Positions 4,767-62,519 of a stretch of 64,000 nucleotides of DNA are shown here, piece by piece; the first letter of the stretch is position 1, and each line of letters opens with the position of its first letter. The notes beneath the pieces are model-generated. The model was given only the letters and a program-made list of their open reading frames with translations. It did not search any database and had not been told where the DNA came from. The stretch is taken from NCBI RefSeq assembly GCF_014205225.1, contig NZ_JACHNB010000001.1, positions 3,763,501 through 3,827,500 of the forward strand. The letters are read 5' to 3'. Position numbers and translations under genes: made by a program. The DNA is from Actinoplanes octamycinicus (GTDB lineage Bacteria; Actinomycetota; Actinomycetes; Mycobacteriales; Micromonosporaceae).

Positions 4767-4789
4767 TTGTCATACCCCCGACGTACGGT
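4767..4789 (+). promoter_or_regulatory. DNA-damage promoter of uvrB (PafBC-type)
   Basis: TTGTCA (4767-4772), 11 bases, then TACGGT (4784-4789). This fits the RecA-independent damage promoter consensus TTGTCRgtg-N8-TAnnnT described for PafBC-controlled genes in mycobacteria. The -10 ends 7 bases before the ATG at 4797, so the mRNA should be leaderless. The same element precedes uvrA, uvrC and the AlkD-like gene in this window. Confidence 0.75.
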
Positions 4790-22111: not shown

Positions 22112-22134
22112 TTGTCATACCCCGTCGCTAGAGT
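22112..22134 (+). promoter_or_regulatory. DNA-damage promoter of uvrA (PafBC-type)
   Basis: TTGTCA (22112-22117), 11 bases (TAC then 8), TAGAGT (22129-22134). It is the same 23-bp element as at uvrB; in both the three bases after TTGTCA are TAC followed by CCC. The predicted start near 22141 leaves a ~33-base leader with GGAGAGG (22161-22167) as ribosome site. Confidence 0.75.
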
Positions 22135-26146: not shown

Positions 26147-26169
26147 CTGTCAGTCCCACGCACTACTGT
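26147..26169 (+). promoter_or_regulatory. DNA-damage promoter of uvrC (PafBC-type)
   Basis: CTGTCA (26147-26152), 11 bases (GTC then 8), TACTGT (26164-26169): the same 23-bp spacing as at uvrA and uvrB, with a single change in the first base. The GTG at 26177 lies 7 bases after the -10, so translation would start at the 5' end. Confidence 0.75.
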
Positions 26170-61170: not shown

Positions 61171-61854
61171 TCAGAGGTGTTTGGCGGCCTCGCGGACCGA
61201 CAACGGTGACAGGCGGGCGGACTCGGCGGTGAGGTAGGCCCGGACCGCGTCCGGGTCGGTGCGGGCGTAGTGCCGCAGCGCCCAGCCGATCGCCTTGCGG
61301 ACGAAGAAGTCCGGGTGGCCGGCCTGCCGGGAGCAGTAGTGGAACAGGCGCGTGGTGTCGGTGGCCGGGCCGTAGTGCAGCTGGTGCAGGATCGCGGTGC
61401 GGACCAGCCACCGGTCGGCGGACCCGGACCACTCGTCCATCCGGGCGGCCAGGCCGGGGTGGCGGCGGACCAGGCCGCCGACGACGTGGGTGGCGAGCGG
61501 GTCGACGGTGTCCCACCAGGATCTCGTGGTGATCAGCTCGGCGGCGACGTCGAGGAAGCCGGGACCGGGCACCCGCGGGTGCGCCATCAGGTAGTCGCAG
61601 GCGAACTGCTGGAACTCCCGCTCGTCGCGGGCCCAGCAGGCGCGGGCGACCTCGGCCAGATCGGTCTCGGCGGGCGTGGGCAGACCGGCCAGCGCGACCC
61701 GGGCGGCGGCCCGCCGGGTGGCGGCGGACAGGCCCAGGAACGGGAACTGGTCCCGCATGTAGGCCGCCATCGCGGGCGCGCGGGCCGCGTCGCGCCGGGC
61801 CTGGAAGCCGGCGGTCAGCCGGGCCAGCAGCGTCTCGGAGAGCCGGTCAGTCAT
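61171..61854 (-). CDS. AlkD-like DNA alkylation repair protein
   Basis: The 227-residue protein has HEAT-like helical repeats of the DNA alkylation repair (AlkC/AlkD) family: 'AYMRDQFPFLGLSAATRRAAAR', 'DEREFQQFACDYLMAHPR', 'TRSWWDTVDPLATHVVGGLV' (conserved W-D-x-V-D) and 'FFVRKAIGWALRHYARTDP'. AlkD removes positively charged alkylated bases. ATG 61854 is 7 bases after the -10 of a PafBC-type damage promoter, so the mRNA is likely leaderless; this context supports a repair role. Confidence 0.9.
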   Translation of the reverse strand: MTDRLSETLLARLTAGFQARRDAARAPAMAAYMRDQFPFLGLSAATRRAAARVALAGLPTPAETDLAEVARACWARDEREFQQFACDYLMAHPRVPGPGFLDVAAELITTRSWWDTVDPLATHVVGGLVRRHPGLAARMDEWSGSADRWLVRTAILHQLHYGPATDTTRLFHYCSRQAGHPDFFVRKAIGWALRHYARTDPDAVRAYLTAESARLSPLSVREAAKHL

Positions 61855-61861
61855 GCCGCGG

Positions 61862-61884
61862 ATCCTGCCACCGTAGTCTGACAA
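61862..61884 (-). promoter_or_regulatory. DNA-damage promoter of the AlkD-like gene (PafBC-type)
   Basis: On the minus strand: TTGTCA (61884-61879), 11 bases, CAGGAT (61867-61862). It has the same 23-bp geometry as at uvrA, uvrB and uvrC. It overlaps the probable -10 TAGTCT (61874-61879) of the divergent acVLRF1 gene, so both genes may influence each other. Confidence 0.7.
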
Positions 61885-61886
61885 GA

Positions 61887-62519
61887 ATGGGCGAACGGGC
61901 GGCCGCCGGCGGCGGGAAATGGGTGGATGTCGCGCCGGAGCGGCTGCCCCGGTGGCTGGCGAACTTCGCCACCCGGCACGGGGAGTACCGCGCGGACGGG
62001 CTGCTCCTGGTCGCGGCGGACGGGGCGGAGGCGACCCTGCACGCGCCGCCCGGCGTGACCGGGGCCGCGACGGTGACCGAGCTCATCGAGGCGGCGCGGG
62101 CGCCGCGCCGGCTCGGGCTGCTGCTGGCCCGCAAGGGCGCGGTCGCGGTCGGCGTGGCGGACGGCACCGAGCTGGTCGCCTCCAAGGTGGACACCCACTA
62201 CGTGCAGGGCCGGACCGCGGCCGGCGGCTGGTCGCAGCAGCGCTTCGCCCGCCGCCGGGACAACCAGGCGAAGGCGGCCGCCGCCGACGGCGCCGGGATC
62301 GTCGGCCGGTTGCTGCTTCCCGCGGTACGGACGATGGCCGCGCTGGTCACCGGCGGCGACCGGACCGCGGTCGACGCGATCCTCGCGGACCGTGCCCTGG
62401 CGCCGGTGGCCGCGCTCCGCGCCGGGCGGCTGCTGGAGGTGCCGGAGCCCCGGCACGCCGTGCTGGTCTCCGCGGTGGCGATGGCCCGCGCGGTGCCGAT
62501 CCTGATCCGGGAGCCCTGA
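61887..62519 (+). CDS. acVLRF1-family peptidyl-tRNA hydrolase
   Basis: The 210-residue protein matches the actinobacterial VLRF1 family, a release-factor-1-like fold related to Vms1/ANKZF1, thought to release nascent chains from stalled 50S complexes. The key region is 'KVDTHYVQGRTAAGGWSQQRFARRRDNQA', with the catalytic-type Gln in 'GGWSQQRFARRR'. ATG 61887 is 7 bases after TAGTCT (leaderless). A 14-bp unit (ATCCGGGAGCCCTG) is repeated three times across its stop codon (about 62507-62548). Confidence 0.85.
   Translation: MGERAAAGGGKWVDVAPERLPRWLANFATRHGEYRADGLLLVAADGAEATLHAPPGVTGAATVTELIEAARAPRRLGLLLARKGAVAVGVADGTELVASKVDTHYVQGRTAAGGWSQQRFARRRDNQAKAAAADGAGIVGRLLLPAVRTMAALVTGGDRTAVDAILADRALAPVAALRAGRLLEVPEPRHAVLVSAVAMARAVPILIREP

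Follow-up and report, generated by a model that had tools for sequence, protein, structure and literature searches.

Promoters of the RecA-NDp type are known from mycobacteria and Streptomyces (PMC5087735, PMC9411070, PMC8223512, PMC2897130, PMC6789036). On activation by single-stranded DNA, PafBC enables SigA polymerase to work from promoters carrying a -26 motif (PMC11804915). In Streptomyces coelicolor the macrodomain gene SCO6735 has a RecA-NDp promoter and is UV-inducible (PMC5087735). For S. venezuelae, an initial search reportedly suggested a lack of conservation of the M. smegmatis PafBC motif, and a RecA/LexA-independent response in Streptomyces is regarded as still to be shown (PMC9380542). 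The PafBC box close to lexA of M. tuberculosis acts on the rv2719c operon alone, and its direction is called essential (PMC8151990). The literature searched, with partial coverage, yielded no paper linking PafBC with AlkD or PafBC with Actinoplanes, and none on acVLRF1.

The locus compared here with these systems lies in a window of 64,000 nt, the whole stretch of Actinoplanes octamycinicus DNA that was analysed. Its features are as follows.

61171..61854, minus strand: alkD-like gene, 227 aa, PF08713, assigned by domain search and AlkD alignment
61862..61884, minus strand: predicted PafBC/RecA-NDp-type leaderless promoter of alkD, TTGTCA-N11-CAGGAT, called from sequence, geometry and relatives
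61879..61884, minus strand: upstream box TTGTCA, roughly where a PafB-bound -26 motif would be expected
61862..61867, minus strand: alkD -10 element CAGGAT, 7 nt from the ATG
61874..61879, plus strand: acVLRF1 -10 element TAGTCT, 7 nt before the acVLRF1 ATG (61887)
61887..62519, plus strand: acVLRF1 gene, 210 aa, divergent from alkD, PF18859 (3.6e-43)

The product of 61171..61854 is predicted to be an AlkD-type alkylbase glycosylase. It matches PF08713 over its whole length (2e-60, residues 16-228 of the translated stretch) and Bacillus cereus AlkD at 2e-39. Residues W114, D118, R152 and W191 are invariant in an alignment of 13 sequences, and align with the active-site residues W109, D113, R148 and W187 of the B. 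cereus enzyme.

On the minus strand, positions 61884-61862 read TTGTCAGACTACGGTGGCAGGAT, and 7 nt (61861-61855) separate the end of this element from the alkD ATG (61854-61852), just as the initial annotation had described. If the A of the ATG is taken as +1, the TTGTCA box occupies -30 to -25. The box fits TTGTCR, and its gap to the -10 hexamer is 11 bases, as in RecA-NDp/PafBC promoters. The -10 hexamer CAGGAT, preceded by TGG in a manner resembling an extended -10, has the A and T of TAnnnT in place with C rather than T as its first base; C takes this position in 10 of the 38 elements retained genome-wide, alkD included, under a search pattern that admitted only C or T. Positions 7-9 of the element are GAC and not the mycobacterial GTG, and the alkD promoter is therefore classed as a variant rather than as a plain member of the RecA-NDp/PafBC group.

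The start codons of alkD and acVLRF1 are 32 nt apart, and TAGTCT covers positions 6-11 of the alkD element, so that the overlap with the divergent promoter claimed earlier is literal. An alternative, which we consider unlikely, is that alkD is transcribed constitutively from an ordinary SigA promoter (extended -10 TGG-CAGGAT, leaderless), with TTGTCA arising as a by-product of the -10 and start region of acVLRF1 on the opposite strand. SigA -35 and -10 elements are separated by about 17 bases. The gap of 11 bases is unfit for a SigA -35, and TTGTCA was rejected as a plain -35 element on that ground and because the -35 reported for Actinoplanes is nTGACn (PMC7682106). An Actinoplanes transcript map (PMC7682106) records 1179 leaderless starts and a -10 of TAnnnT; leaderless genes and TAnnnT are normal in Actinoplanes, which fits the reading of the alkD promoter.

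The loose pattern YTGTCR-N11-YAnnnT matches seven times in the window; 100 shuffles gave 1.03 matches on average and 5 at most. Four of the seven precede repair genes, namely alkD and the following three.

4767..4789, plus strand: element before uvrB, 7 nt to the ATG; UvrB by domain
22112..22134, plus strand: element before uvrA, 39 nt to the GTG, not leaderless; UvrA by domain
26147..26169, plus strand: element before uvrC, 7 nt to the GTG; UvrC by domain

An additional in-frame GTG lies 1 nt past the uvrB element, and uvrC has two in-frame GTGs, 7 nt and 1 nt after its element. The alkD element had been put forward as the fourth of identical geometry before a repair gene in the window; the count of four stands, but the distance at uvrA departs from the leaderless arrangement. 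The remaining matches (26456, 32206 and 47336, all minus strand) have no start codon 6-8 nt downstream opening an ORF of more than 60 aa.

The initial annotation had proposed a whole-genome scan comparing repair genes with others, and the outcome favours the motif. In the 10.28 Mb genome (one contig), TTGTCR-N11-YAnnnT-N6..8-RTG has 49 matches. The same leaderless pattern read backwards has 4, and two permuted boxes with the -10 and start geometry unchanged have 6 and 3 (0 and 9 when read backwards), so that roughly a tenth, and at most a fifth, of the 49 may be chance matches given the 0-9 found in the five controls. Without the demand for a start codon, NTGTCRNACCC-N7-AnnnT has 51 matches versus 4. 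A plausible downstream gene was the ground for keeping 38 of the 49; the 11 dropped comprised 5 inside an opposite-strand gene, 3 with ORFs below 50 aa and 3 with atypical codon composition.

By Pfam, 14 of the 38 downstream genes belong to repair, recombination or replication: RecA, AlkZ-like, RmuC, a PD-(D/E)XK nuclease, RadA-like, MGMT, a DNA polymerase III delta-type protein (holB), RecO, UvrB, AlkD, a DinB-type polymerase, a 5'-3' exonuclease, RecN-like and PriA, with RadA and RecN named from domain make-up. The upstream neighbours of the same sites include one repair gene in 34 (uracil glycosylase family, cut-off 1e-6), 4 of the 38 sites having no usable upstream neighbour. The Fisher test for 14/38 versus 1/34 gives p = 3.5e-4, with the genes sorted by hand and not blind, and with uvrB and alkD, the source of the finding, among the 14. 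The other 24 genes were not counted as repair and several have no link to it; they include ScpA, a macrodomain protein, a WYL regulator, two SWIM proteins and a helicase-like AAA protein. No repair gene was found among the 5 downstream ORFs scanned from 9 permuted-control matches. Thirty of the 51 NTGTCRNACCC matches fall outside the strict list, and one of these is that of uvrA. Eight further non-strict matches, picked by hand, were scanned for domains: one is that of lexA, an RNase T-type exonuclease gene has an element 8 nt upstream, and six of the eight precede non-repair genes (two ABC transporter, DinB_2/MDMPI, HEAT, WGR and pentapeptide genes). Beside alkD, the alkylation-repair genes carrying the element are the MGMT gene and the AlkZ-like glycosylase gene.

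Several other element-bearing genes were recorded. A macrodomain gene (L017:853-1503) bears the element, as does the UV-inducible SCO6735 of S. coelicolor. lexA (L286, 386252-386273 of this genome) has a same-direction element 103 nt ahead of its probable start, which could join the two damage responses. Elements also precede two genes for SWIM zinc-finger proteins, an AAA-domain gene and one lacking a Pfam match (L026, L032, L042, L049), which may be part of a SWIM-MoxR-type cluster. At a PD-(D/E)XK nuclease gene, a holB-type gene, a recN-like gene and priA (L008, L012, L046, L048), TTGTCR is followed by G-runs (GGGG, AGGG) and not by ACCC.

The consensus of Gamulin (2004) reportedly has GTG after TTGTCR. 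The boxes of this genome mostly read TTGTCRKACCC rather than TTGTCRGTG: exact TTGTCRKACCC-N6-TAnnnT has 18 matches here and no more than 5 in any of 58 other genomes of the class, while TTGTCRGTG-N8-TAnnnT has 2 here, up to 40 in other class genomes, and 33, 43 and 39 in three named Streptomyces genomes. Counts in 61 genomes of the family span 0-18 for the ACCC form and 0-8 for the GTG form. Judged by its letters, the box of this genome is a lineage variant that would work like a RecA-NDp promoter. The deviation from the GTG form, in both the 18 versus 2 exact matches here and the Streptomyces counts, favours a reading in which the TTGTCRKACCC boxes are read by a regulator other than PafBC, such as a WYL-domain paralogue or an alternative sigma factor, and so does the element borne by a gene for a WYL regulator itself. 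Against it, the TTGTCR-N11-TAnnnT geometry is that of RecA-NDp promoters, as is much of the target set (recA, the uvr genes and the macrodomain gene), and PafB and PafC orthologues are present. These are encoded side by side in this genome, with matches of 8e-68 (PafB) and 1e-76 (PafC) to solved PafB/PafC chains, and PafB has a match in all 61 family genomes searched. A different reader of these boxes thus appears quite improbable. NCBIfam gave no family at 0.001 for PafB, PafC, AlkD or the AlkZ-like protein.

The WYL-domain regulator gene in question (L018:1531-2226, near 3450944 of this genome) has an ACCC element, TTGTCATACCCCCGCTCTACGGT, 7 nt before its GTG; this second WYL regulator may be a candidate regulator within the regulon. 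In its DNA-binding region, PafB (L147:4769-6717, 8702768-8704716 of this genome) differs from the solved PafB chain 7p5x_AY by a four-residue insertion and by two residue changes. The insertion was rejected as the cause of ACCC variation within the family, as it occurs in all 30 PafB sequences read, all from this family and taken from the 61 genomes with a match, over which ACCC counts run from 1 to 18; a constant insertion does not explain a count that varies.

AlkD relatives were sought in 200 genomes of the family, 121 of which gave a match, many of them weak or partial. Upstream regions were read for 89 long matches, 36 from the same genus (our own locus included) and 53 from other genera, for NTGTCR-N11-NAnnnT with its end 6-8 nt ahead of an in-frame ATG or GTG. 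The box precedes alkD in 18 of the 36 same-genus loci and in 4 of the 53 others (L111, L119, L133, L134), with L133 and L134 resembling the rest only weakly. On a tree of 54 AlkD+acVLRF1 rows, the box is present in 28 and 6 changes are needed; one clade has it in 24 of its 27 rows, and the sister clade in 0 of 16. Fourteen of these 16 hold a -10 at the same place without the box (7 CATGAT, 4 GATGAT, 2 CAGGAT, 1 TATGAT), which suggests an ordinary promoter as the alternative state. The nearest named relatives of this alkD are from Actinoplanes. Among the 80 best named loci listed, the box was seen ahead of alkD in records of Actinoplanes, Paractinoplanes and Jidongwangia, and 0 of the 50 Streptomyces loci have it within the 160 nt searched upstream of the match. 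As the box is absent from the sister clade, from half of the same-genus loci and from Streptomyces, it is not needed for alkD expression. Many Streptomyces alkD genes (L173-L228) have in common a conserved upstream stretch, for example GATCGCCGTATGGTTCGTCTCATG, without a TTGTC box at the alkD spacing.

The reading of an ordinary SigA promoter gains from these data, in that most relatives without the box still have a -10. It gains also from the rows in which the two promoters overlap, where the box region doubles as acVLRF1 promoter sequence, and from L058, in which alkD lies further away and TTGTCAGACTA is kept on the acVLRF1 side only. The relatives provide a natural experiment on this point. 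In 19 element rows, with a gap of 32-33 nt between the genes, the alkD box overlaps the acVLRF1 -10 (L149, whose acVLRF1 match is partial, was placed here by eye), and all 19 have A at position 6 and TA at positions 10-11, the complement of the acVLRF1 TAnnnT. In 9 further element rows, with gene starts separated by 38-309 nt, the two do not overlap in this way; the box remains with alkD at the right spacing, and 8 of the 9, the exception being the distant L237, have CCC at positions 9-11, as do most boxes of the genome, with position 6 being G in 5 and A in 4. A box that stays with alkD when the acVLRF1 -10 is elsewhere argues against a by-product, as do two of these 9 rows, L235 and L236, in which that -10 touches position 1 of the box only. 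Among the 38 elements of our own genome, T at position 10 and A at position 11 each occur once, both in alkD. Positions 6, 10 and 11 are thus held as A, T and A where the box shares bases with the acVLRF1 -10, and the simplest reading of these alignments is that the odd box of alkD is a PafBC box bent by the -10 of its neighbour. A row-wise Fisher test of overlap against the CCC pattern gives p = 2.9e-6, a value that is unusable because the rows are related. Three phylogenetically independent pairs, scored for CCC at positions 10-12 and not 9-11, contain two to three that agree and none opposite, too few for a significant sign test.

The earlier suggestion that acVLRF1 might take part in the same damage response found no support. 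acVLRF1 lies upstream of alkD in 59 of the 89 family loci and TAnnnT stands 6-8 nt before its start in 46 of 58 upstream regions, and an element in its own direction is present in 0 of these 58. The widespread divergent neighbourhood and the overlapping promoters would suit a common region that co-induces both genes after damage. In several relatives with the genes apart, though, the box stays beside alkD, Actinoplanes philippinensis (L153) being one species with the separated arrangement, and the lexA box of M. tuberculosis likewise acts in one direction (PMC8151990). With the one-way precedent and no own-direction element, co-induction is very improbable, and acVLRF1 was rejected as a regulon member, its shared box pointing to alkD only. 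Occlusion of acVLRF1 is likelier than co-induction, and is possible.

We therefore regard it as quite probable that the element is a promoter of PafBC type (RecA-NDp type) for a leaderless alkD transcript, with acVLRF1 unaffected or lowered. DNA damage would expose single-stranded DNA and activate PafBC, which would bring the housekeeping SigA polymerase to the TTGTCA box near -26. The alkD transcript would begin at or beside the ATG, and the alkylbase glycosylase would rise along with recA, uvrA/B/C, recN, ogt and others. A polymerase on either the alkD or the acVLRF1 promoter would exclude a polymerase on the other, and given this mutual exclusion acVLRF1 would be expected to stay flat or fall after damage, and not to rise. 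The proposal that alkD belongs with the uvr genes in one damage response is thus retained as membership of a predicted regulon, for which the geometry, the 14/38 versus 1/34 enrichment, the conservation, the shared-base pattern and the presence of PafB and PafC speak; its extension to acVLRF1 falls away. More tentatively, and rather doubtfully as a whole, the locus may be a dual-use promoter in which the PafBC box of alkD is also the acVLRF1 -10, damage raising the glycosylase and, by occlusion, lowering the release factor, within a lineage-wide re-tuning from TTGTCRGTG to TTGTCRKACCC across most of the regulon.

With its different box extension, the set found here offers a concrete, testable regulon of PafBC type outside mycobacteria, predicted to take in three alkylation-repair genes (alkD, MGMT and AlkZ-like). 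Removing RecA and turning down PafBC did not abolish induction of the M. tuberculosis alkA-ogt operon (PMC8151990), so PafBC control of alkylation repair would be a genuine difference. The acVLRF1 overlap hints at how a neighbour's promoter can bend a regulatory site, which differs where it is free.

The AlkD-like protein has its family and active-site residues in common with B. cereus AlkD (PDB 3jy1, 5cl4). With the mycobacterial RecA-NDp/PafBC promoters the alkD element shares TTGTCR, the 11-base gap, the A and T of the -10, its aim at a repair gene and a genome encoding PafBC; it differs in GAC at positions 7-9, in a genome where most boxes have ACCC at 8-11 and not GTG at 7-9, in a -10 that starts with C, in alkD as the target and in a box shared with a divergent -10. 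The Streptomyces promoters, with SCO6735 as example (PMC5087735), are of the same class, with a macrodomain gene bearing one in both; they differ in the 33-43 GTG-form matches of the three genomes, and the 50 listed alkD loci are without the box. The M. tuberculosis lexA/rv2719c box likewise lies beside two genes and serves the one it points to, but its unaffected neighbour is lexA (PMC8151990), whereas the corresponding gene here is release-factor-like and has a -10 with bases in common with the box.
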